Part shown: positions 3,500 through 62,849 of the stretch, in pieces
Numbering within the stretch: position 1 is the stretch's first letter
Layout: each line of letters opens with the position of its first letter
NCBI RefSeq assembly: GCF_000002425.4
Contig: NC_037253.1
Coordinates: forward strand, 3,688,576-3,752,575
Reading direction: 5' to 3'
DNA length: 64,000 bases
DNA from: Physcomitrium patens
Taxonomy: Eukaryota; Streptophyta; Bryopsida; Funariales; Funariaceae
The notes under the pieces: model-generated
What the model was told of the DNA's origin: nothing
What the model saw: the letters and a program-made list of their open reading frames with translations, nothing else
The model's database searches: none
Translations under genes and position numbers: made by a program

Positions 3500-4060
3500 T
3501 GTCAAGGACAAGAATATAATAAAAACAAATAAACAAGTGAGACTTCTCTCAAAGAAAGATGACAAAATAGAAATAACTTGATATGTATATTAAGAAAGAA
3601 AATGGAATGGCTATTGCCAAAAGCCAAGAAAACTAGAGACCCTTGAAACTAGACTAGAAGCAAGAAAAGAGTTGACAAGAGTGAAGAAGGCTTCATTCTT
3701 GTCTCTATATATACTATCTAATTAGGGGCTACGTGGTGATGTTCTATAGGACCTCCAATATGTGTTGACTTTGTAGGACACATGCCTTGATGTACAAGGC
3801 AAGTTTTTTTACGTGTGGTCCACATAATTACCTTGATCTTCAAGCTAACAACATGTGTGGCACATGGCCAACTTGTTGATCACATTTCTAATCCAAAAAG
3901 ACAATTAAAGACACCTTTAAAGTCAAAGCAACGTCTATGAAGCTTCTAGAAAGCTTTCATAGCAAATATTATAGAATTAACTTATTTTTATCTACTTTTA
4001 CTTACTTCTATCTATTTATACATGTAATGATTGGCTTAGATGCATATGTCTGTGATAATA
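3500..4060 (-). repeat. B2: solo LTR of family B, reversed
   Basis: The reverse complement matches the B1 LTR (16282-16818) and the B3 LTR (49670-50198), including the TATATATA promoter and the CTTCTTCACTCTTGTCAA start region (TTGACAAGAGT at 3672-3682 on the plus strand). A perfect heat-shock-type array GAAGCTTCTAGAA is at 3939-3951. No internal family-B sequence adjoins either end, so it is a solo LTR sitting just after the C1 primer site. I see no clear target duplication (GTATG before, TGTTG after). Confidence 0.75.
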
Positions 4061-16281: not shown

Positions 16282-16818
16282 TGTTATGGAAATACACATA
16301 TGAATCAATAATTATTTATATGATTTAGATAATAGTAATTAAAAGTAGGATAAATCCATAATATCTTCTATAGAAGCTTTTTAGAAGCTTTATAGATGCT
16401 GTTTTGACTTTATAGGTATCTTTAATTGATTTTTTAGATTAGAAACGTCATCAACAAGTTGACCATGTGCCACATATGTTGGTAACTTAAAGAACAAGCT
16501 AATTATGTAGCCCATATGTAGAAAACTTATCTTATAAGCTAAGACATATGTCTTGCAAAGTCAACACATATTAGAGGAATATTGCCACATAGTTCCTAGT
16601 TAGATAGTATATATAGAGATAAGAGTAAAGCCTTCTTCACTCTTGTCAATTCTTTTCTTTCTTCTACTCTAGATTTAAGAGTGTTTGATTTCTTTGTGAT
16701 TTGGCAATAGCCATTCTAGTTTCTTTTTAATATACATATTATATTTTTATTTTTCCACTTTTCTTTTGACATAGATTTCTCAAGTTTATGCATCTCCTTT
16801 CAATTCATATCCTTGAAA
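16282..16818 (+). repeat. 5' LTR of B1
   Basis: Matches the B3 LTR (49670-50198) and the reversed B2 LTR. TATATATA is at 16608-16615 and the predicted transcript start ACTCTTGTCAA at 16639-16649, 31 bp later. The 5' border (TGTTATGG) was inferred from the three copies and is approximate. Confidence 0.7.
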
Positions 16819-16820
16819 AA

Positions 16821-16831
16821 TTGATAAGAAT
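16821..16831 (+). other. B1 self-priming site (decayed)
   Basis: TTGATAAGAAT, two bases after the LTR. It equals the complement of the LTR start ACTCTTGTCAA except for one C-to-T and one G-to-A change. B3 keeps the perfect version at 50201-50211. Confidence 0.6.
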
Positions 16832-18966: not shown

Positions 18967-18970
<4 letters not shown>

Positions 18971-19440
18971 AGGGACATAGTCCTTAGACCTTTCTAGAAA
19001 CAAGTTTCTAGAACCTTCTAGAAAGAAGTCTCTAGAAACTTCTAAAAGATTCTTTGAATATTCTCTTAGAATATTCTTCAAAGATTCCCTAAAGATTCTT
19101 TGAAGATTCCCTAAAGATTCTCTTAGAAGGCTCTAGAAGATTCTTAGAATATTCTAGTAGATTCTAGGAAGTTACTTGAGAAGCTTCCTAGCTCTTGGGT
19201 AGTTGCTCGAGAAGCTTCATAGTTCTTGGGAAGCTTCTTGATGCGCTTCCTTACAACCATAGGCCAATAGTATATATAGGAGTCGAGGCTGAAGAGTTCT
19301 TCAGTCTCGACAACACATCTCTTGAAGCTCTAGCTCAATTCTCTTGGTGTTGCTCTTGTACTCATCTAATAATCTAGTTCTTGTCATTTCTTCTTGAACT
19401 TCTTGATTAGATTTCTTGTTTGTATTTTTTTTCTGTGACA
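18967..19440 (+). repeat. 5' LTR of A1
   Basis: 474 bp, TGTTAGGG...CTGTGACA. U3 holds heat-shock-type arrays (TTCTAGAACCTTCTAGAA at 19006-19023). TATATATAGG starts at 19271 and the predicted transcript start AGTCTCGACAA is at 19303-19313, giving U3 of about 336 bp and R-U5 of about 138 bp. Confidence 0.95.
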
Positions 19441-19442
19441 GT

Positions 19443-19453
19443 TTGTCGAGACT
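19443..19453 (+). other. A1 self-priming site
   Basis: TTGTCGAGACT, two bases after the LTR, is the exact reverse complement of AGTCTCGACAA in the LTR (19303-19313). No tRNA 3'-end complement (TGG...) is present at this position. By analogy with Tf1, the transcript's first 11 nt would fold back and prime minus-strand synthesis. Confidence 0.7.
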
Positions 19454-19464
19454 ACCTTTATCTT

Positions 19465-19838
19465 AATATCAGAGCTGAATCCTTCTTGTTTGAGAGCGGA
19501 TTATCCATCTTCTTGAAGGTATTCTAGCGCTTTAGGGGTTGCGGATTACCTTCCTCTAAACTGATATTTTCTCAATCACAATATCAGAGCTTAGTTCTTT
19601 GAGGCAAAGAGTGGACTACCCCTTTCCTTGGAGATACTTGAGCGTTCTAAGGGTTGCAGATTACCCTCTCTTGGACTGATATTAATTCCTTCTTTTTGTT
19701 TAGCATAGCTAGTAAAAAAGACTGTTAACATCGATTTCAGAGCTTTGCCTTCTTGATAGAGTGCGGATTACCCCTCTTCTCGAAAGCATTGAGGCATTTT
19801 TAGAGGTTGCGGATTACCCTCCTCTAAAACTGAAATCG
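19465..19838 (+). other. A1 leader: three tandem RNA modules
   Basis: Three diverged units at 19465-19568, 19580-19683 and 19732-19838 (104, 104 and 107 bp). Each is closed by an inverted repeat: AATATCAG/CTGATATT in units 1 and 2, CGATTTCAG/CTGAAATCG in unit 3. Each has an inner stem (TTTTAGAGG/CCTCTAAAA in unit 3) and two GGATTACC-like boxes (unit 3: 19763-19772 and 19809-19818). Possible roles are packaging, dimerisation or translation control; none is shown. Confidence 0.7.
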
Positions 19839-24796: not shown

Positions 24797-25281
24797 TGTT
24801 AGGGACATAGTCCTTAGACCTTTCTAGAGACAAGTTTCTAGAACCTTCTAGAAAGAAGTCTCTAGAAACTTCCAAAAGATTCTTTGAATATTCTCTAAGA
24901 ATATTCTTCAAAGATTCCCTAAAGACTCTTTGAAGATTCTCTAAAGATTCCCTTAGAAGACTCTAGAAGATTCTTAGAATATTCTAGTAGATTCTAGGAA
25001 GTTACTTGAGAAGCTTCCTAGCTCTTGGGTAGTTGCTCGAGAAGCTTCATAGTTCTTGGGAAGCTTCTTGATGCGCTTCCTTACAACCATAGGCCAGTAG
25101 TATATATAAGAGTCGAGGCTGAAGAGTTCTTCAGTCTCGACAACACATCTCTTGAAGCTCTAACTCAATTCTCTTGGCGTTGCTCTTGTACTCATCTGAT
25201 AATCTAGTTCTTGTCATTTCTTCTTGAACTTCTTGTTTAGATTTCTTGTTTGTATTTTTGGTCTGTGACAGGTCCGTGACA
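24797..25281 (+). repeat. 3' LTR of A1 with an 11-bp terminal duplication
   Basis: The standard 474 bp run to 25270 (GGTCTGTGACA), then GGTCCGTGACA is repeated (25271-25281), followed by TATAT. It is closer to the A2 3' LTR (about two differences) than to its own 5' LTR. Confidence 0.9.
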
Positions 25282-29998: not shown

Positions 29999-30469
29999 TG
30001 TTAGGAACCATATACAAGACTAGGATTCAAGACCAAGAAATGGAGTTTACTTGACATTAAAACAATAATTGGATACAAGTCAAGAAGGTCTTCACTAGAT
30101 CACAAGAAGTAAATTGTCGAGACTAAGGATCCTCTCAACCTCGACTCTTATATATACTAGGTCTTCAAAAGCTTCTTAAGAAGTTTCTTAAGAAGTTTTG
30201 AGAATAAAGCAAACCTAAGATCCTTCTTCAACAACTTCCTAAATCATCTAAAGCCTCTTACATCTTTTAGAACCTCGTATGACTTTTTAGAACTTTCTTA
30301 GAATCTATTAGAATCTTCTAAAACCTTCTTGAACCTCTTAGAACCTTCAAAAGCCTTTTTATAACCTACTAGTATCTTTCAAACCTTCTAGAATCTTCTA
30401 CAACCTTTTAGAATCTTTTGAAACTATTTGAAATCTTTTGGAACCTTCTTCAATTGTATGTTTGTAACA
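29999..30469 (-). repeat. E: solo LTR, family related to A
   Basis: 471 bp, minus orientation (TGTTACAAAC...CCTAACA on the minus strand). The minus strand has AGTATATATAAGAGTCGAGG and then AGTCTCGACAA, the same promoter and transcript start as family A. U3 is rich in heat-shock-type half sites (TTCTAGAATCTTC at 30386-30398). Target site: ATCAA before, GCCAA after, equal except for a G-to-A and a C-to-T change. It sits inside family-F integrase. Confidence 0.8.
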
Positions 30470-49669: not shown

Positions 49670-50198
49670 TTTTTATCATGAACATATGTATTTACTCTAA
49701 TATTTATTTATATGATTAGATAGAAGTAAATAAATGTAATTTTATTTTTTAGTATCTTTTAAAAAAACTTCTAAGAAGCTTCATATATATAGATTGGACT
49801 TTAAATATGTTTATAGTTGATTGATAGTCAACAAGGTAACAATGTACCATACCTATTGATAGCTTGTAGAACAAGCTAATTAAGTGGCGCACATATAAAA
49901 AACTTGACTTATAAGTTAAGACATGTGTATTGCATAGTCAACACATATTAGAGGTCTTACATAACATCAACACATAGCTCATAGTTAGTTAGTATATATA
50001 GAGGTAAAAATAAAGCCTTCTTCACTCTTGTCAATGTTTTTGTAATCCTTAATCTTATTTTAAGACTTTTTAGTCTTCTTATCTTGGTAATAGCCATTCT
50101 AGTCAAATATATTATAATCATTAAGTAATTTTTTAGTCTTTTTAAGTAATGCAAGACTGTATTGAATATTTCTTTCTTTAAGATTCATATCTTTAATA
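49670..50198 (+). repeat. 5' LTR of B3
   Basis: Matches B1 and B2 LTRs. TATATATA at 49993-50000, predicted start CACTCTTGTCAA at 50023-50034. Left border approximate. Confidence 0.7.
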
Positions 50199-50200
50199 GT

Positions 50201-50212
50201 TTGACAAGAGTG
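50201..50212 (+). other. B3 self-priming site (intact)
   Basis: TTGACAAGAGTG, two bases after the LTR, is the exact reverse complement of CACTCTTGTCAA at 50023-50034 (12 nt). Its sequence differs from family A at three positions, each compensated in the LTR. Confidence 0.7.
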
Positions 50213-50402
50213 CTAACTTATTATTTTTTCTTATTTTAGAAGTATATGGATTCATTCCACTTTTATTATTATATTTATAAGGTTGTGGACTACTTACTTT
50301 TAAATAATTAATTTAATTTTTTAACATCAATTTTTTTCTTAAAGAGAATGGTTTATTTTTTTTTGTAAATTTTTTTATTTGATATTAAAAGTTGTATATT
50401 AT

Positions 50403-50699
50403 TGTTAGGGACATAGTCCTTAGAACCTTCTAGAGACAAGTTTCTAGAACCTTCTAGAAACAAGTCTCTAGAACCTTCTAGAAGCTTTCTAGTTGATGGA
50501 AGTTACTTGAGAAGCTTCTTATATAGGAGTATATATTGGAATCGAGGCTGAAGAGTTCTTCAGTCTCGACAACACATCTCTTGGAGCTCTAGTTCACCTA
50601 TCTGGTGTTGTTCTTGTATTCATCTGATTAATCTAGTTCTTGCCAGTTCTTCTTGAACTTCTTCTTAGATCTCGAGCCTGTATTTCTATGTCCGTGATA
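50403..50699 (+). repeat. 5' LTR of D
   Basis: 297 bp, TGTTAGGG...CCGTGATA. Heat-shock-type array TTCTAGAACCTTCTAGAA at 50442-50459; predicted transcript start AGTCTCGACAA at 50562-50572. Confidence 0.9.
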
Positions 50700-50701
50700 G
50701 T

Positions 50702-50712
50702 TTGTGTAGACT
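50702..50712 (+). other. D self-priming site (two mismatches)
   Basis: TTGTGTAGACT, two bases after the LTR; matches the complement of AGTCTCGACAA at nine of eleven positions. Confidence 0.55.
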
Positions 50713-50723
50713 GAACTCACCTC

Positions 50724-50945
50724 AGATATCAGAGCTAGTTTCTTCTTTGTTAGAATGTGGATTACCCCTTTGCTTAAAGGTGTACTAGCATTTTAGAGGT
50801 TGCGGATTACCCTCCTCTAAATTGATACTTCTTTTGTTACAATATTGGAGTCTTATTCTTCTTGAAAAGAGTGGATTACCCCTTTTCTTGAAGCTCTCGA
50901 GGTGTTTTAGAGGTTGCGGAGTAACCTCTTCTAAACCAATATTGT
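50724..50945 (+). other. D leader: two RNA modules
   Basis: Units at about 50724-50830 and 50839-50945. The second is closed by a perfect 10-bp inverted repeat ACAATATTGG/CCAATATTGT, different in sequence from the A stems but at the same positions. GGATTACC boxes at about 50758, 50803 and 50873; the fourth box reads GGAGTAACC. Confidence 0.7.
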
Positions 50946-50979
50946 CTTCTTATAGAGTCATTTCTGTCCTTCTTTTAGA

Positions 50980-51939
50980 ATGGCCAAGGGCCAAGACATT
51001 AGTATGACGAAAAGTTAAGAGTTCAAGTTGGATGCTATCATGAATGCCCTTGTTATGATAACGTAAAGAACTGCAGAGATTGAAGGAGCCATAGCAAGGC
51101 TTTATAATGATGGAGCATCTGGGATGGCACAATCTAAGTTGCACCAACCTCAAACTTCTGCACTTGGAGAAGCAACTTTGCCTCAGGTTCGACAAGCACC
51201 GCTGGTTCTACAACATAAAGAGCTCCGATTTAGCCTTCCAGAAAAGTTTGATGGTACGCGTTCTAAGTTTCGAGGATTTGTCAATCAAATCAGGTTGATA
51301 ATAATTTTACAGCCCAAACGCTATCCAATGGAAGAGTCACGTATTTGACTTGTTTGAACCTTACTTACCGGGCAAGCTCTATCATGGTTTGTTCTTTTGT
51401 TTGAGGAACGATCATCCATACAAAACAACTTTGAAACCTTTTTGGACGCATATACAAAAGCATTTGGTGAACATGACAAGGTTCAATGGACTACAACAAA
51501 GATCTAGTCAATACAACAAGGGATGCGCTCTACATTAGTCTATGCATCGGATTTCAGGCAATTAGCATGCGACATCAATTGGGACAAAGAAGCATTGATG
51601 AGTCAATTCTATTGGGATTTAAGGGACAATGTGAAGGAATTGCTGTTAATTCTTCTTGATCCGCGAATGTTCAACGAAGCTATTAGCCAAGCTATGAAGT
51701 GCGATAATCATCTATTCAAATGTCGCCAAGACCAACGCTCAAGACAATATACGGTTTGCCATGCCCGAACTATGTCGGCAAGCAGCGTGAATTCACATTC
51801 AGAGATAGAAGACATGCAAATTGATGTGGTACGTATCAAATTCCTTACTCTAGAAGAAAAAAAGCGGCGTATGGAGGAAGATCAATGCTTATATTGCGGT
51901 GAAGAAGGCTACAAAGTTGGAAACTGCTCCAAGAAGTAA
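50980..51939 (+). pseudogene. D gag
   Basis: Starts at ATG 50980 (MAKGQDIS). Homologous to A2 gag: LPEKFDGTRSKFRGFVNQIRL (51235-51297, split here by quoting limits as EKFDGTRSKFRGFVNQ), then a frame-breaking region, then an open part 51523-51939 with WDLRDNVKELL, MQIDVVRIKFLT and zinc knuckle CLYCGEEGYKVGNC, in which the zinc-binding His is Tyr (CAC to TAC). Interrupted by a few stops. A GGAAAAC slippery motif follows at 51978-51984. Confidence 0.8.
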
Positions 51940-52574
51940 AATCGATGCACTGTCAGGACCAGGGGCACGTTTATTCAGGAAAACAAGGATGCCTAGCCAC
52001 AATAGGAATCATGCGGCTGGACAATGAAATATTGCAACAACAACCAGGTTCTTTTCTTTCCGCTCAACCTACCTTTTGTTTTACAATCTCTTTATTTATT
52101 GGCCCTCAAAAACTGAGAACCTTAGCATTATTAGATTTATGAGCATCTGCTTGTTTCTTAGACGAAGAATTTGTAAAGCATCATAAGATCCTTTTAGTAC
52201 AAAAATCCAAACCTGTTTATATAGAGGTCATAGATGGATGACCTTTATTGTTTGGTAGTGTCACCCATGAATCAAAACCTATAGAAGTGACGTTTAAGAG
52301 CCATAGTAGTCATATTATTTTTAATATTATTAAAACCCCATCAAATCCTATTATTCTTGGTCTTTTTTGGTTAGAAAAGCATAATCCATCCATAGATTGG
52401 AAGTTGCGAAAGATGACCTTTTCCACAAAACCACCCAAGAACAAGCCTAGTAAAAAACCACGAATAGAGAAATCCTTATTCATTGGAGCAAGAGCGTTTG
52501 TAAGATTGTCAAGGAAGGCACACCATTTGTCATTTATGCGGTTCTAACTACCGTAGAGAAGATCTCGACAGCAA
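51940..52574 (+). pseudogene. D pol, first part (protease)
   Basis: In the -1 frame to gag: QGCLATIGIMRLDN, then the protease with LALLDL*ASACFLDEE (DSGA changed to DL-stop-A) and PIILGLFWLEKHNP. It runs into the A2 insertion at 52575-52579 (GTATA) and resumes at 59122. Confidence 0.8.
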
Positions 52575-52579
52575 GTATA

Positions 52580-53053
52580 TGATAGGGACATAGTCCTTAG
52601 ACCTTTCTAGAGACAAGTTTCTAGAACCTTCTAGAAAGAAGTCTCTAGAAACTTCCAGAAGATTCCTTGAATATTCTCTTAGAATATTCTTCAAAGATTC
52701 CCTAAAGATTCTTTGAAGATTCCCTAAAGATTCTCTTAGAAGGCTCTAGAAGATTCTTAGAATATTCTAGTAGATTCTAGGAAGTTACTTGAGAAGCTTC
52801 CTAGCTCTTGGGTAGTTGCTCGAGAAGCTTCATAGTTCTTGGGAAGCTTCTTGATGCACTTCCTTACAACCATAGGCCAGTAGTATATATAGGAGTCGAG
52901 GCTCAAGAGTTCTTCACTCTCGACAACACATCTCTTGAAGCTCTAGCTCAATTCTCTTGGCGTTGCTCTTGTACTCATTTGATAATCTAGTTCTTGTCAT
53001 TTCTTCTTGAACTTCTTGTTTAGATTTCTTGTTTGTATTTTTGGTCCGTGACA
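52580..53053 (+). repeat. 5' LTR of A2
   Basis: 474 bp, begins TGATAGGG (TGTTAGGG in the others). The start region reads ACTCTCGACAA (52916-52926), one base different from the other copies. Shares six diagnostic bases with the A1 5' LTR against both 3' LTRs. Confidence 0.95.
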
Positions 53054-53055
53054 GT

Positions 53056-53066
53056 TTGTCGAGACT
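53056..53066 (+). other. A2 self-priming site
   Basis: TTGTCGAGACT two bases after the LTR, complementary to AGTCTCGACAA of the family (3' LTR copy 58979-58989 is intact; the 5' copy has one mismatch). Confidence 0.7.
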
Positions 53067-53570: not shown

Positions 53571-54620
53571 ATGGAAGTAGACTAGGTCATAGACAGTGCA
53601 TCTCCACAAGTAGACAATAGAGTGGCAACTCTTGCAGATCTTCAAGCTCTTATGAATAGTGTACGAAAGGAGATTGCATTTCTTCGCAATCCAAGTAAAG
53701 AATCTCAAATTGATCTAGTGATCGAAGAAGCTAGACGCAAAATTCATAGCCTACAACAAGAGATTATTCGATTGAGAGAAGCAAGACATGTGTCACATAC
53801 GACCCCTATGGATACTTCAAGGATTAGTACGAAAGAACCAAAAGCGAGTATGCCAGACAAGTTTGACGGAACAAGAGCCAACTTCCGAGGTTTTGTGCAA
53901 CAAGTACGGCTTTACCTACGCCTATATCCTTCTCGTTATCCGAATGGATTTACCCAAGTTGCTTTCATAGGTACTCTTCTATCAGGAAATGCTTGCTCTT
54001 GGTTTGCTCCACTGTTGGAGAAGGATTCTCCAATATTATACGACCTAGAGGCTTTCATAGAGAGACTTACTGCTGCGTTTGGAGATAGCGATCGAGAAAG
54101 AGTGGCTGAAAGAAAGATACAAAATCTGCGACAAGGATCACGTTCTACTGCAATTTATGCTGCAGAATTTCAACAGCTTACATGTGATCTTGATTGGAAT
54201 GATAAGGCGTTCATGACACGATTTCGATATGGACTGAGAGACGATGTCAAGAACTTATTGATCACCATGCCTAAGGCGGATACTTTAGAAGAACTTATAT
54301 CTCAGGTAATTATTTGTGACAACCGCCTCTTTGAATTACGACAAGAAAGACGATCAGGCTGGAGAAATGATGGAGCATTTGCTACATTTTCAAAAGGTCC
54401 AGAGAATCACTCCACACATCCTGAACCCATGCAAATTGATGCGGTACGTTTCAAACCCCTCACAGCTGAGGAAAAGAAGCGACGGTTTGAACAAAACTTG
54501 TGTTTATATTGCGGAGAAGCGGGCCATAAAGCTGTAGATTGTCGGAAGAAACAGAAGCCTCAAACAACAAGACTCAGGAGTACAAGCATGCAGGAAAACA
54601 AGGACGCCCAGCCACAATAG
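53571..54620 (+). pseudogene. A2 gag
   Basis: The ancestral start is probably ATG 53571 (MEVD), followed by TAG at codon 5 (53583-53585; also in A1). From 53622 a clean 332-codon frame runs to TAG 54618-54620, but its first codon is GTG where A1 has ATG, so initiation is doubtful. Content: an N-terminal coiled-coil-like region (EEARRKIHSLQQEIIRLREA), the retrotransposon-gag domain with MPDKFDGT, FRGFVQQVRLYL and [25 protein letters not shown], then [11 protein letters not shown] and zinc knuckle [14 protein letters not shown] (54501-54542). The slippery GGAAAAC lies at 54593-54599 in phase G|GAA|AAC. Confidence 0.85.
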
Positions 54621-57600
54621 GGACCGTGCGGCTGGACATCTCAACTTCCAAAATTAATCAAGGTCCCTTTCTCTCAGCTCAACCTTCAGATTGTTTTATG
54701 GTACCTTTACATCTGGGTATTCAAGAACTACAAGTCGATGCTTTATTAGACTCGGGTGCATCCGCTTGCTTTATAGATGAAGAGTTCGCCAAGCTTTACA
54801 ATATTTCTCTTGTAAAGAAACTTAAGCCTGTCCATGTAGAAGTCATAGACGGACGACCATTGTCTTCGGGCAATGTTATCCATGAAACTAAACCATTGAA
54901 GGTACATCTTGAAAACCATGAGAGCAATATTGTGTTTAATGTTATCAAGACCCCTTCATGTCCTATCATTTTGGGACTATCTTGGCTTGATAGATATAAT
55001 CCATTGATAGATTCGAAGTTACGAAAAGTGACATTTCCAACAAACTCCTTGAAGGTGGAATCTGCCAAGACAATGTCTAGAAACAAATCCTTGTTTATAG
55101 GTGCAAGGGCTTTCATGAAGGAAGCCAAGAAAAATACACCTCTTGTTATCTTCGCAACTCCGACTCGAGAAGATGCAACTCCGACTTTGGTTATTCCAAA
55201 GCAGTATGAAGAATTCAAAGATGTCTTTGAAAAGAAGAATGATGATATGCTGCCAGAGCATCGACCCTATGACTGTGCCATTGAATTGCAAGAAGGAGCA
55301 CAACCACATTTTGGACCAATCTACAATTTGTCGCAGATGGAGTTGACTGAGTTGCGGAAGTACATTGACAAGAATCTAGCCAAGAACTTCATCCGTCATT
55401 CAAAGTCGCCAGCTGGGGCACCAATCTTATTTGTGAAGAAGAAGGATGGCTCACTACGGATGTGCGTGGACTATCGAGGTCTCAACAAGGTGACAAAAAA
55501 GAATCGCTACCCACTGCCTTTGATCTCTGGTCTTCTAGAATAACTTGGGCGTGCAAGGATCTTTACAAAGATTGACCTAAGGGGAGCTTACAACCTTGTG
55601 CGAATTAAAGAAGGAGATGAATGGAAGATAGCGTTCCGAACAAGGTATGGCCATTTTGAATACAATGTCATGCCATTTGGTCTTACTAATGTTCCAGCGG
55701 TCTTTCAACACATGATGAATGACATCTTTCGAGAGCATCTAGACGATTTTGTTGTCATTTATCTAGATGATATTTTGATATTTTCTAAGAACGAGAAAGA
55801 ACATGAGAAACACGTTTGTCTGGTACTCAAAAAACTACGGGAGCGAGGACTCTATGCCAAATTCGAGAAGTGCTTATTTCACTAAACTGAGATAGAGTTT
55901 TTGGGATTCATTGCGACTACGGAAGGCTTGAAGATGGATCCAAAGAAGGTAGAACCAATCATGTCTTGGGAAGTTCCGAAGACGGTTAGGGATGTACAAT
56001 GTTTTCTTGGATTTGCTAACTACTATCGGATCTTCATCAAGAATTATTTTCAAGTTGTTGCCCCCCTCACTCGGTTAACGTGTAAGGACAAGCTCGAATG
56101 GGGACCTATCGCAGAAAAAGCATTTCAAGATTTGAAGATGGTATTTACTACAGCTCCAATCTTGGTACATCCGGACTTTACAAAGGCCTTTTATTTGGAG
56201 ATAGATGCTTTGGATTTTGCTTTGGGAGCTGTACTTTCACAGATGGGCGTAGATGAGAAGCTCTATCCAGTTGCGTTCTATTCTTGAAAATTCACTGCTG
56301 CTGAGATCAACTATGAGATCCACGATAAGGAACTCCTTGTTATAGTAGATTCTTTCCAAGAGTAGCGCCACTTTCTCGAAGGAACTGCACATCCAGTGAT
56401 CGTATATACGGATCACAAGAATTTGGAGTATTTTATGTCGGCTCGGGTTTTGAATCGGCATCAAGCTCGGTGGAGTATGTCGCTATCCAAGTTCGACTTT
56501 GTTATTACTTATCGGCTTGGGAAGCAACAAGGGTTGTCCGATGCATTATCAAGGAGATCATATCTCGCGCCAAAGGCTAGAGATACACCATTTGATCAAC
56601 AGTTTACGACATTGTTGAAGCCAGAGAAATTTCGGCTCAACGCAGCTATTGTACCAATTGATGCTGACTTCCTCGACCAGGTACGGGCCGCAACCATTGA
56701 AGATTCTCTAGCCCTTGATATCAAGCAACATGCTAGTGATGATAAATTCAAGACGGAAGGAGATCTAGTATATTTCGAAGAGCGGTTGTATATCCCAAAA
56801 GGGCCAACACGACTCCGAGTTCTTCAATCTCGTCATGACTTTCCAACTACGGGACATTTTGGATTCAATAAGACCTTGGAACTTATTTCCCGCGATTTTT
56901 GGTGGCCTCAAATGTGGAAGGATGTGAAAGATTTTGTTGTATCTTGTGACATTTGTTCAAGATCCAAAAACCCTCGACATCGGCCTTATGGACTTCTACA
57001 GCCATTGCCTATTCCGTGCCGACCATGGTCTTCGGTTTCCATGGACTTTATTACGGATCTACCACCATCGAATTCATTTGACAGCATTTTTGTTGTCGTA
57101 GACCGGCTTACAAAGATGGTGCATTTTGTTCCTTGTAAGAAGACATCATCAAGCGAAGACACAGCAAGACTCTTTCTTGATAATGTGTATCGATATCATG
57201 GTCTACCAGATGATATCGTATCGGATCGAGGAACCCAGTTTGTGTCAAAGTTTTGGAAATCTCTTTTTGAAATATTGAAGGTGGATATCAAGCTTTCTTC
57301 GACATTTCATCCTCAAACGGACGGCCAAACAGAACGGGTGAATCAAGTTTTAGAGCAATATTTACGTTGCACCATCAACTATCAACAAGATGATTGGGTC
57401 GCATATCTACCGCTAGCCGAGTTCGTATATAACAACACCCTTCATGCGTCAACTCAACAAATGCCATTCTTTTCCAATTATGGATACCATCCGAAGCTTG
57501 ACTTATGGAGTTCGTCAACGATTAACAATTCGACAGCTGAAGGATTGGTGAAGGAGCTTTCGCAGCTTCAAACTACATTGAAGCTTCAATTGCAAACTGC

Positions 57601-58099
57601 CCAAGAATCTTACAAGGCGTCCGCGGACAAATTTCGGAATCAGGCACCTAAATTCACGATTGGAGACAAAGTTTGGCTGCTTCGACGAAATATTAAGACC
57701 AAGTAGCCATGTGACAAATTGGACTATCGGAGATTGGGACCATTTGTTATCAAGAAGCAGATCAATCCTGTAGCGTATCGTCTGGAGTTACCAGCTACTA
57801 TGAAGGTACATCCTGTCTTTCATGTTTCTTTGTTGGAGCCTTATCGAGAATCGTCTTTTCCTGGAAGAGTATAATGTCCACCACCTAGCATAGAAATAGA
57901 GAACCACGAAGAATAGGAGGTGGAAAAGGTCCTGGATTCACGGCAAAGACAGGGTAAATTAGAATACTTTGTGCATTGGAGCCGTTACGATATTAATGAA
58001 CGAACATGGGAGTCGGCCAAAAATCTCGCGAATGCGCCGCAAAAGGTACAGGAGTTTCATCGACCATATCCTGAGAAACCCAAGCCGGTTCGACGATAG
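54530..58099 (+). pseudogene. A2 pol
   Basis: 1190 codons in the -1 frame, overlapping gag by about 90 nt. Aspartic protease ([12 protein letters not shown], 54749-54785) and a [11 protein letters not shown] block; RT with [28 protein letters not shown] and catalytic YLDDILIF (55760-55783); RNase H with [10 protein letters not shown] (56404-56433); integrase with its HHCC finger (56831-56956) and DDE motifs SMDFITDLP, VSDRGTQF, TDGQTERVNQ; a GDKVWLL block; and a chromodomain (57917-58070; LEYFVHWSRYD, TWESAKNL). Stops at 55541, 55883, 56285, 56363, 57704, 57872 and 57914; all but 55883 and 57872 are shared with A1. The longest open part is 56396-57706. Confidence 0.92.
54593..54599 (+). promoter_or_regulatory. 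Candidate -1 frameshift site in A2
   Basis: GGAAAAC in phase with gag; a -1 slip gives ...[15 protein letters not shown], the pol frame. The same word lies at the same place in A1 and D; B1 has the canonical AAAAAAC there. Confidence 0.5.
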
Positions 58100-58642: not shown

Positions 58643-59116
58643 TGTTAGGGACATAGTCCTTAGACCTTTCTAGAGACAAGTTTCTAGAACCTTCTAGAAA
58701 GAAGTCTCTAGAAACTTCCAAAAGATTCTTTGAATATTCTCTAAGAATATTCTTCAAAGATTCCCTAAAGACTCTTTGAAGATTCCCTAAAGATTCCCTT
58801 AGAAGACTCTAGAAGATTCTTAGAATATTCTAGTAGATTCTAGGAAGTTACTTGAGAAGCTTCCTAGCTCTTGGGTAGTTGCTCGAGAAGCTTCATAGTT
58901 CTTGGGAAGCTTCTTGATGCGCTTCCTTACAACCATAGGCCAGTAGTATATATAAGAGTCGAGGCTGAAGAGTTCTTCAGTCTCGACAACACATCTCTTG
59001 AAGCTCTAACTCAATTCTCTTGGCGTTGCTCTTGTACTCATCTGATAATCTAGTTCTTGTCATTTCTTCTTGAACTTCTTGTTTAGATTTCTTGTTTGTA
59101 TTTTTGGTCCGTGACA
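58643..59116 (+). repeat. 3' LTR of A2
   Basis: 474 bp, TGTTAGGG...CCGTGACA, about two differences from the A1 3' LTR and about 13 from its own 5' LTR. Confidence 0.95.
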
Positions 59117-59121
59117 GTATA

Positions 59122-62014
59122 GCGGAGGAATATAAGTATTTTAAAGACGTGTTTCAAAAGAAGAATGCCGACATGCTATCAGAACACGGACCATATGATT
59201 GTGCCATGGACTTGTAGGAAGGAGCACAATCACTTTTTGGCCCAATCTACAATCTATCGCAGACGGAGTTGTGGAAGTACATCGACGAGAATCTAGCCAA
59301 GAACTTCATGTGTCATTCAAAATCGTCAATTGGGGCACCCATCTTATTTATGAAGAAGAAAGATGGCTTGTTGCAGATGTGCGTGGACTATTGAGTCCTC
59401 AACAAGGTAACAAAGAAGAATCGTTATCTGTTACCTTTGATTTTTGGTCTCCTAGAACAACTTGGATGTGCAAGGATCTTTACAAAAATTGATCTAAGGA
59501 GAGCTTACAACCTCGTACAAATCAAGGAAAGTGACGAGTGGAAGACAACGTTTCGTACAATGTATGGCCATTTTGTGTATAATGTCATGCCGTTTGATCT
59601 TACCAATGCTCCAGCAATCTTCCAACATATGATGAATGATATTTTTTAGGAGCACCTTGACGATTTTGTCGTCATCTACTTGGATGATATTCTGATATTC
59701 TCCAAAAACGAGGAGGAGCATGAAAAGCACGTTCGTTTGGTCTTGGAGAAACTACGCGAGTGAGGACTATATGCCAAGTTGAAGAAGTATTTATTTCACC
59801 AAGTAGAAATGGAGTTTTTGGGGTTCATTGCGACTACGGAAGGCTTGAAGATGGATCCCAAGAAGGTGGAAGCAATCGTGTCCTGGTAGGTTCTGAAGAC
59901 GGTTAGAGACGTACAATGCTTTCTTGGTTTTGCTAACTTCTATCGGATCTTCATCAAGAATTACTCTCAAATTATTGCTCCTCTCACTCGGTTGACATGG
60001 AAGGATAAGTTGGAATGGGGACCTCTAGCGGAGAAGGCATTTCAAGACCTGAAGACAGCATTTACTACGACTCCAATCTTGGTACATCCAGACTTTACAA
60101 AGGCCTTCTATTTGAGAAATTGATGCTTCGGATTTTGCTTTGGGAGCTGTACTTTCAGCAATGGGAGAAGACAAGAAGCTCCATCCGATTGCATTCTATT
60201 CTCGAAAGTTTTTTACTGTTGAAATCAATTATGAGATTGACAATAAGAAACTTCTTGCTATAGTGGATTCTTTCCAAGAATTGCGTCACTTTCTTAAAGA
60301 GGCTACACATGTAGTGACCATATACACGGATCACAAGAATTTGGAATATTTTATGTCGGCTCGAGTTCTAAATCGACGTCATGCTTGGTGGAGTATGTCG
60401 CTATTTAGGTTCAATTTTGTTATCACTTATCGACTTGGAAAGCAACAAGGACTATCCAATGCCTTATCGACGAGATCGTATAATGTACCAAAGATTGGAG
60501 AACTAATGTTTGATCAACAATATATGACGTTGTTGAAGCCAGCGCAATTTCGGCTTTGCGCTATTATTAAGCCAATTGATGCTGACTTCTTGAATCAGGT
60601 ACGTGCCGTGACCATTGAAGATTCAGTAGCCATTGATATCAAGCAGCATGCCAATGACGACAAGTTCAAGGTGGAGGGAGATCTTTTATACTTTGAGGAG
60701 CAGTTGTATATTCCAAAAGGACCAACACGACTCCGAGTTATTCAAACTCGCCATGATATTCTAGCTGCGGGACATTTTGGATTGAACAAGACCTTGGAGC
60801 TTATTTCTCAAGATTTCTTGTGGCCCCAAATATGAAAGGATGTGAAAGATTTTGTCCTCTCTTGTGACATTTGTTTAAGATTGAAGAATCCTTGACATCG
60901 CCCTTATAGACTTCTATAGCCATTGTCGATTCTACGTCGACCATGGTCTTCAGTTTCTATGGACTTCATTATGGACCTGCCATCATCGAACTCATTTGAC
61001 AGCATCTTTGTCATAGTAGATCGGCTTACAAAGATAGCTTACTTTGTCCCTTGCAAGAAGACATCATCTAGTGAAGTCACAGCAAGGCTCTTTCTCGATA
61101 ATGTGTATCGATATCATGGACTACTAGATGATATCGTATCAGATCGAAGAACCCAGTTCGTATCAAAGTTTTGGAGATCTCTCTTTGAGATATTGAAGGT
61201 GGATATCAAGCTTTCTTTGGCTTTTCATCTTCAAACTGGTGGCCAAACGGAATGGGTGAACCAAGTCTTGGAACAATACTTACAATGCACCATCAACTAT
61301 CAGCAAGACGATTAGACCGCATATCTACTGCTCGTCGAGTTTCCATATAACAACACCTTCCATGCGTCGATTCAATACACACCATTCTTTTCGAACTATG
61401 GGTATCATCTGAAGCTTGATTTATTGAGTCCATCAACAAATAACAATCTAGCAGCTGAAGGATTTACGAAGCAACTATTAGTGCTTCAATCTACGTTGAA
61501 GCTTCAATTACAATCCGCTCAAGAATCCTACAAGGCGTCTGTAGATAGATTTTGGAATCAAGCACTTACTTTCAAAATTGGAGATAAAGCATGGCTTCTT
61601 TGACGGAATATCAAGACCAAGCGACCATGTGATAAGTTTAACTTTCGATGATTGGGACCATTTATCATCCAAAAGCAAATCAATCTAGTGGCGTACCGTT
61701 TGAAATTATCAGCTTTTATGAAGGTACATCTAGTCTTTTATGTTTCTCTATAGGAGCCTTATCGAGAGTCGTCTTTTTTTGGAAGAATGCAATGTCTGCC
61801 ATCTAGTATTGAGATCGAGAACCATGAGGAATACGAGGTCAAAAAGGTACTGGATTTACGGCGAAGGTGGGACAAGTTGGAGTATCTTGTTCATTGGTGC
61901 AGCTACGACATTAATGAGCAAACGTGGAAGCCAGCTGAAAATCTTGCCAATGCGTTGCAAAAGGTGCAGGAGTTTCATCAACAACATCCTCATAAACCTA
62001 AGCCGATTCGATGA
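59122..62014 (+). pseudogene. D pol, second part (RT to chromodomain)
   Basis: Continues D pol after A2. RT with [13 protein letters not shown] and catalytic YLDDILIF (about 59680-59703); a +1 shift near 60117 before RNase H (60140-60835 is the open part, [10 protein letters not shown], and the integrase finger start); integrase SMDFIMDLP, VSDRRTQF and a damaged TGGQTEWVNQ (61230-61265), in which the Asp and Arg of the usual block are changed; chromodomain LEYLVHWCSYD and TWKPAENL (61875-61945). Stops are mostly C-to-T changes. Where A1 and A2 share stops, D has CAA, CGA, TTG, CGA and TAC, showing the ancestral sense codons. Confidence 0.88.
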
Positions 62015-62552: not shown

Positions 62553-62849
62553 TGTTAGGGACATAATCCTTAGAACCTTCTAGAGACAAGTTTCTAGAAC
62601 TTTCTAGAAGCAAGTCTCTGGAACCTTCTAGAAGCTTCATAGTTGGTAGAAGTTTCTTGAGAAGCTTCTTAAATAGGAGTATATATTAGAATCGAGGCTG
62701 AAAAGTTCTTCAGTCTCGACAACACATCTCTTGGAGCTCTAGCTCACCTCTGTGGTGTTGTTTTTGTATTCATCTGATTAATCTAGTTCTTACCAGTTCT
62801 TCTTGAACTTCTTGTTAGATCTCGAGCCTGTATTTCTGTGTCCGTGACA
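62553..62849 (+). repeat. 3' LTR of D
   Basis: 297 bp, TGTTAGGG...CCGTGACA, followed by the ATTAT duplication. It carries the most perfect heat shock element of the window, GAACCTTCTAGAAGCTTC at 62621-62638. Confidence 0.92.

Follow-up and report, generated by a model that had tools for sequence, protein, structure and literature searches.

The window analysed here comprises 64,000 nucleotides (nt) of the moss Physcomitrium patens (contig NC_037253.1, positions 3,688,576 to 3,752,575, forward strand; GC content 34.6%) and contains several families of long terminal repeat (LTR) retrotransposons, most of which appear to prime reverse transcription with their own RNA. Copies A1, A2 and D are Ty3/gypsy elements, and Pfam recognises Gag, protease, reverse transcriptase, RNase H and integrase distributed among these copies. 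D also encodes a chromodomain that by eye looks like the aromatic-cage type, at what we take to be the cage positions, while no Pfam match was found in the single piece of A2 tested. The repeat map and LTR ends suggest that A2 is nested inside D, D inside B3, and A1 inside B2. The LTR ends are set by 5-bp target duplications (GTATA for A2 and ATTAT for D), which fixes the putative primer-binding site (PBS) at 2 nt past the terminal dinucleotide, which is CA except in D and B3 (TA). A spacing of CA, 2 nt and PBS is the product expected of integrase end-processing, as known for retroviruses. The LTR pairs are ~97% identical in A1 and A2 and 94% in D, which indicates that the window copies are old, and several are decayed.

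An earlier reading of these letters without database searches (the sequence-only reading) had proposed that the 11-nt PBS is complementary to an 11-nt word inside the LTR. The pairing is complete (11/11) in A1 (word 19303, PBS 19443) and B3 (50024 and 50201) and reaches 9/11 in D, as that reading had it; in the B copy with its word at 16639 (B2), the PBS carries two transitions. For A2, the proposed layout is present, and the word of its own 5′ LTR has one change that reduces the pairing to 10/11. The A and B words differ at three positions, each of which is mirrored in the PBS; because two of the three are transversions, C-to-T decay cannot account for them. The word starts 32 nt after the TATA box TATATATA in A1 and A2 and 31 nt after it in B3 and B2, which agrees with the spacing first noticed. 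In A1, A2, B2, B3 and D, the word begins with A and is preceded by C. Nucleotide 12 is unpaired in A1 and B3, and the longest invariant block of the three B LTRs, which agree at only 51% of columns, is 22 nt long, with primer nt 11 as its last position. When the 31-nt windows around word and PBS were dinucleotide-shuffled, the observed runs were matched in 2 of 2000 trials for A1, 0 of 2000 for B3 and 91 of 2000 for the decayed D. In an eight-row matrix of words against PBSs, seven words match their own PBS at 11/11 (the exception, L018, has a primer of 10 nt and is out of register in the matrix), and foreign PBSs give 1–8 matches, except for A/D, which share one word (11), and the one-letter variants F1/F2 (10). 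A scan for the PBS alone in loci L091–L100 returned five matches of at least 10, of which three fall on the word of A/D or of B, against 0–2 in ten shuffled sets; the same scan of L101–L106, run without a shuffled control, returned seven, with one on the B word and two others at 11/11.

Further copies were sought in the host genome (470 Mb, 101 contigs) and drawn from the 40–41 best-scored places per query; they are near relatives of each query, because the search scores only the best candidates. First-look candidates numbered 1955 for D, 7571 for B and 2330 for A, which are not copy counts. Among 20 A copies fetched from the best 40, 17 pair at 11/11 and 3 at 10/11. The D query gave 30 loci, the window itself included, with 30 pairs in 28 loci (13 at 11/11, 11 at 10/11, 5 at 9/11 and 1 at 8/11, B-like neighbours included); the D word alone, re-scored over all 30 loci, gave 14, 10, 5 and 1 at 11, 10, 9 and 8 of 11. 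B3-like copies (20 fetched of the best 41) were distributed as 3, 7, 8, 1 and 1 at 11, 10, 9, 8 and 7 of 11. Eight of 95 stretches upstream of integrase matches were examined: seven bear the full signature, six at 11/11 and one at 10/11, with the A word in five and the B word in two, and L148 bears none. The distance suggests that signature stretch and integrase match form one element. Over these queries, the word-PBS pairing is kept in most of the genome copies examined.

Between the TATA box and the word, the LTRs of A, D and E and the better B LTRs carry a further segment in the unique 3′ region (U3), termed the arm, which is complementary to approximately nt −4 to +9. It can form a hairpin of 11–13 bp, with the 3′ side reaching nt +8 to +10 in the arm-bearing families. 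Folding of nt −24 to +11 yields −22.5 kcal/mol for A1, −18.9 and −16.0 for D, −14.1 for the minus-strand B copy and −12.0 for B2, values equalled or bettered in no more than 2 of 500 shuffles. A scan blind to the PBS, which requires a TATA box, the start dinucleotide and a hairpin, was applied to 224 kb of moss DNA, composed of the window (8 hairpins) and 160 kb from 16 places of our choosing (8 hairpins). All 16 matches fall on self-primer words, compared with 1, 1, 0, 3 and 0 in shuffled sets. The strict hairpin is present in 20/20 A copies, in 26/30 D-query loci and in 7/7 signatures upstream of integrase matches. Across 13 moss rows, 91.7% of arm-word cells pair; shuffling lowers this to 82.9%, and sliding to 48.5% or less. 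The covariation score reaches 0.347 (0.190 when shuffled) and the two-sided cells number 20 (8.3 when shuffled), each reached in 0 of 500 shuffles. Covariation extends to pair 15-22, which lies outside both primer and PBS and is one of four pairs with changes on both sides; it is seen in family E (2 rows of 13). Arm, word and PBS thus change in concert. None of the portions of the open-licence literature that were searched describes a primer-complementary arm in U3.

Relatives outside the moss were collected by scanning contigs of prokaryote genomes with an integrase alignment, which gave 58 contigs that are taken to be mis-binned eukaryotic DNA; viral contigs scanned yielded no relatives. Five contigs have the same layout, with a word 32–34 nt after a TATA box and fully paired with a PBS at CA + 2. 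All five belong to one cyanobacterial metagenome-assembled genome (MAG) filed as Trichormus, and their DNA is presumably of plant origin. The MAG words are AAGGCGAACAA in L002, L004 and L006, AAGGTGAACAA in L024 and CTCTTGATCAA in L005. Loci L001, L002, L004, L006 and L024 form the same hairpin from other letters (−14.5 to −21.2 kcal/mol), and in L024 a one-letter change of the word is mirrored in both arm and PBS. Two more, L011 with 11 nt and L018 with 10 nt, look self-primed, and nine of the 58 bear a PBS that matches the initiator tRNA with no more than one mismatch. A looser scan of the 58 contigs gave six matches in five loci; 20 rounds of shuffling gave none in 14 rounds and 1, 6, 1, 1, 3 and 2 in the remaining six. 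The hairpin scan found 12 matches there, 5 on self-primed loci and 7 elsewhere, versus 6, 4, 1, 3 and 5 in shuffled sets; with shuffled counts this near the real ones, it is informative in these contigs only in combination with the word.

An integrase tree was built with FastTree from 62 rows and rooted at the midpoint, with A2 and D as the only moss rows and without named Tcn1 references. L024 lies outside it, with fewer than 280 aligned residues; L001, whose 5′ word is broken, was labelled self-primed by arm and PBS, and L018 by 10 nt. All nine self-labelled rows fall on one side, together with Anolis and five named fungi; the opposite side holds all nine initiator-tRNA rows. One clade (support 0.98) unites the two moss rows with eight rows of the Trichormus-filed MAG, self-labelled or not, and adjoins a fungal group (0.97). 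As a matter of the public record, this MAG (CAKZGI) holds chromovirus DNA (L001–L006, L012, L015 and L024), mostly of the moss clade in the tree, where L024 does not appear, which is an instance of mis-binning.

Taken together, the sequences indicate that A, B, D and E are very probably moss chromoviruses of the Tcn1 and Tf1/Sushi type whose own RNA serves as the primer for reverse transcription. The self-priming interpretation of the sequence-only reading is supported by the 11-nt length, the 2-nt spacer, the TATA spacing, the pyrimidine-purine start, the matching across different words, the genome copies and the integrase tree. Transcription would start at the LTR word, as the TATA box suggests, and the first 11 nt would fold back onto the PBS two bases past the LTR. 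By analogy with Tf1, the reverse transcriptase would then cleave the RNA behind nt 11 and elongate the released primer. The attached primer would serve as template for the PBS plus strand, so that the PBS would be rewritten in each cycle to match the word, and such rewriting would produce the paired changes of word and PBS.

The arm may solve a problem peculiar to this mode of priming. Unlike in tRNA-primed elements, the primer sequence of a self-primed element may stand at both ends of the RNA, and its 3′ copy should stay unused and uncut. In an mRNA that starts correctly, U3 is present solely at the 3′ end, and the arm would therefore act on the 3′ word only; the 5′ word, with no arm before it, would be free for the PBS. 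We tentatively propose, at a little short of an even chance, that the arm hides the 3′ word in a hairpin, such that only the 5′ copy becomes primer while the 3′ copy serves as template for the first-strand transfer. The folding energies speak for such a division of roles: hairpin versus word-PBS values are −22.5 versus −16.2 kcal/mol in A1 and −18.6 versus −15.6 in L004, and nearly equal in L024 (−14.5 versus −14.1). In a joint fold of both RNA ends, which used an artificial 40-nt spacer and, except in A1, the 5′ LTR in place of the 3′ LTR, the 3′ word occupies the PBS at 0.00 in all seven arm-bearing elements and at 0.17–0.96 with the arm barred; the armless L005 gives 0.91. The primer-PBS helix appears in the predicted structures of A1, B3 and all five MAG loci. 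A side duplex with the LTR end was seen by eye in four of the five MAG loci, but not in L004. Pairing of the 3′ flank beats 200 of 200 shuffles in D and, weakly, 186 of 200 in A1 (14 of 200 as good), and is no better than shuffles in B.

Table 1. Retrotransposon features in the window (energies refer to folds of the arm with the word).
Feature	Position	Strand	Basis or remark
B LTR copy, word	3672..3682	−	U3 arm 3691-3703; −14.1 kcal/mol, 0/500 shuffles
B2 TATATATA	16608..16615	+	31 nt before B2 word
B2 U3 arm	16618..16630	+	12/13 pairs; −12.0 kcal/mol, 2/500 shuffles
B2 self-primer word ACTCTTGTCAA	16639..16649	+	word match
B2 PBS TTGATAAGAAT	16821..16831	+	9/11, two transitions
A1 5′ LTR (TG...ACA)	18967..19440	+	LTR ends
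A1 TATATATA	19271..19278	+	32 nt before A1 word
A1 U3 arm	19282..19294	+	complementary to −4..+9; −22.5 kcal/mol, 0/500 shuffles
A1 self-primer word AGTCTCGACAA	19303..19313	+	putative RNA 5′ end
A1 PBS TTGTCGAGACT	19443..19453	+	11/11 to A1 word
A1 3′ LTR	24797..25281	+	word at 25133; extra 11-bp end 25271-25281
Family E LTR, word AGTCTCGACAA	30114..30124	−	region of the U3 arm, 30125-30148; a PBS candidate was not found
B3 TATATATA	49993..50000	+	31 nt before B3 word
B3 U3 arm, decayed	50003..50015	+	−3.5 kcal/mol, word unpaired, 175/500 shuffles
B3 self-primer word ACTCTTGTCAA	50024..50034	+	word match
B3 PBS TTGACAAGAGT	50201..50211	+	11/11
D 5′ LTR	50403..50699	+	target duplication ATTAT
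D U3 arm	50542..50553	+	12 pairs; −18.9 kcal/mol, 0/500 shuffles
D self-primer word (same as A word)	50562..50572	+	word match
D PBS TTGTGTAGACT	50702..50712	+	9/11
A2 5′ LTR, nested in D	52580..53053	+	target duplication GTATA
A2 5′ U3 arm, decayed	52895..52907	+	−10.0 kcal/mol, 60/500 shuffles
A2 word ACTCTCGACAA, one change	52916..52926	+	word comparison
A2 PBS TTGTCGAGACT	53056..53066	+	10/11
A2 Gag	53622..54620	+	PF03732, PF19259
A2 protease region	54539..55543	+	PF08284
A2 RNase H end and integrase	56396..57706	+	PF17917, PF17921, PF00665
A2 3′ LTR	58643..59116	+	word at 58979
D chromodomain	61754..62011	+	PF00385, E 3.1e-13
D 3′ LTR	62553..62849	+	word at 62712

Other features of these elements are recorded here in their own right. 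Family E, which the sequence-only reading did not list, is a further LTR family with the A word, in which the arm is spelled differently yet paired (30114-30148, minus strand; also in L095). The extra 11 bp that end the A1 3′ LTR, GGTCCGTGACA, repeat the LTR end in its A2 version. Heat-shock-type repeats (TTCnnGAA/GAAnnTTC) crowd the U3 of A and D, with 13 at 18967-19302, 14 at 52580-52915, 7 at 50405-50561 and 9 at 62553-62711, where shuffles expect 0.2–0.6; heat induction is known from the retrotransposon ONSEN. The unique 5′ region (U5) of the three window B LTRs contains a small hairpin, TGG(C/T)-AATA-GCCA (e.g. at ~50085-50096), and one 11-nt block there, AATAGCCATTC, is invariant. Nine letters of the initiator-tRNA complement make up the motif TATCAGAGC, which lies 10–14 nt after the PBS in A, D and B (at 19467, 50727 and 53080, and also in L097 and L101) and recurs in the A1 leader (19582). 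The window also holds a MYB-type open reading frame whose nearest named relatives, from Physcomitrium and Ceratodon, are 49–51% identical, which points to a moss host.

Several results weigh against self-priming with a guarding arm. The strict hairpin is absent from B3, is not significant in the 5′ LTR of A2 (Table 1) and is found in only 5 of 20 B3-like copies; L005, L011 and L018 look self-primed and have no arm, which implies that the arm is not required. Two of five covariation measures are no better than shuffles (two-sided pairs, 4 versus 3.5, 233/500; further pair types, 10 versus 11.1, 471/500), and the shuffle ignores the relatedness of the rows. The primer-PBS helix is not predicted in D (~0.01) and is partial in B2 (up to 0.44), where both PBSs are decayed. 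The fold of the repeat (R), U5 and PBS overall is no better than shuffles (z −0.77 and −0.94). The artificial construction of the joint fold counts on the same side, and even with the arm free the 5′ word occupies the PBS at just 0.13 in L150 and 0.09 in L154, both of them B copies. Perfect 11/11 word-PBS matches also occur by chance in AT-rich DNA (L103 and L106), for which reason we give weight to the hairpin scan and to families that can be recognised. A Tf1-like pretzel was sought in A and B, but its side duplexes were not recovered there, and flank duplexes were no better than shuffles except for the 3′ flank of D and, weakly, that of A1.

Ordinary tRNA priming, either at the 11-nt PBS or at the nearby TATCAGAGC, is very improbable. 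tRNA-Met serves most chromoviruses (PMC6317226), and the motif, which resembles the initiator-tRNA complement, begins 27–28 nt past the LTR end in A1, A2 and D and is likewise found behind the PBS in two B copies, L097 and L101. However, it contains no TGG and stands away from the LTR end, and it was all that a search for the initiator-tRNA complement (at most 2 mismatches) found at the A, B and D leaders. The PBS of A, B and D itself starts with TTG instead of TGG, such that the CCA end of a tRNA cannot pair, and it tracks the LTR word of each family, which is unexpected for a tRNA site. No tRNA genes occur in the window; the rest of the host genome was not searched for them. Family C provides the contrast that the sequence-only reading had drawn, since close to its LTR end lies a degenerate initiator-tRNA site (C2, TGATATCAGAGT; C1, TGGTATCATAAT). 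It is also improbable that the word-PBS and arm-word matches merely reflect concerted evolution by copying or palindrome repair, with no present function in old copies. The age and decay of the window copies would suit this explanation, and self-priming would itself copy the word into the PBS; yet seven of the eight stretches upstream of integrase matches, most of these matches with long open frames, keep word-PBS and arm (their distance pointing to single elements), and the covarying family E pair lies outside primer and PBS.

Two other explanations concern the arm alone. That it is a promoter palindrome acting in DNA, as a protein site or cruciform, and unrelated to the 3′ word copy, we consider somewhat unlikely: its position between TATA box and start and the many heat-shock-type repeats in U3 of A and D would fit, whereas its sequence varies by family and tracks the word, unlike a sequence-specific binding site, and the 3′ side of the hairpin stops within the first ten nucleotides. 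It is unlikely, too, that the arm mainly disables read-through RNAs started upstream, in which U3 would precede the word and lock it, so that only correctly started RNA primes. The hairpin and its energetics would be identical to those of a 3′ lock, and by the same token the two look alike by sequence. The proposal that the arm guards the 3′ word extends to plants at large: conceivably, though we lean slightly against it, plant self-primed elements carry such a guard, a U3 antisense of the primer, and primer, PBS and guard evolve as a triplet. The arm looks like an answer to the two-copy primer problem and, if the guard is real, two identical R sequences meet different fates. The genome holds plant families with different primer words, and covariation of primer, PBS and arm is therefore open to tabulation over many copies.

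Among the closest known systems are Tf1 of Schizosaccharomyces pombe and the Tf1/Sushi group. Tf1 primes with its first 11 nt, which are cleaved between nt 11 and 12 (PMC7175516), and its leader forms three duplexes (PMC10085805). The moss elements share with Tf1/Sushi an 11-nt RNA start complementary to the PBS, here placed by the TATA box, as well as the LTR-terminal CA and the chromodomain (PMC7175516; PMC10085805). They differ in having a plant host, in the pretzel side duplexes that were not recovered in A and B, and in the U3 arm, which is absent from the parts of the Tf1 literature examined. The integrases of A2 and D group with Tf1/Sushi, near fungi and apart from tRNA-primed chromoviruses. 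For plants, the sequence-only reading was aware of no demonstrated case. No experimental plant demonstration was found in the accessible parts of the open-licence literature, but self-priming is already in print as a prediction: PMC6317226 predicts it for the majority of the Tcn1 clade of mosses and club-mosses and proposes it for the copia TAR lineage (Houba, Osr-1), which, by its description there, is alike in priming but belongs to Ty1/copia, a superfamily other than that of these Ty3/gypsy elements. For SM-Tcn1 of Selaginella, PMC2864245 reports evidence for neither tRNA priming nor self-priming. With the Tcn1 clade, the elements described here share the moss host, the chromodomain (D) and an integrase clade adjoining fungi, and they differ from it in the arm, of which the parts of the Tcn1 literature examined contain none. 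Self-priming having already been predicted for the Tcn1 clade, the new element here is the U3 arm.

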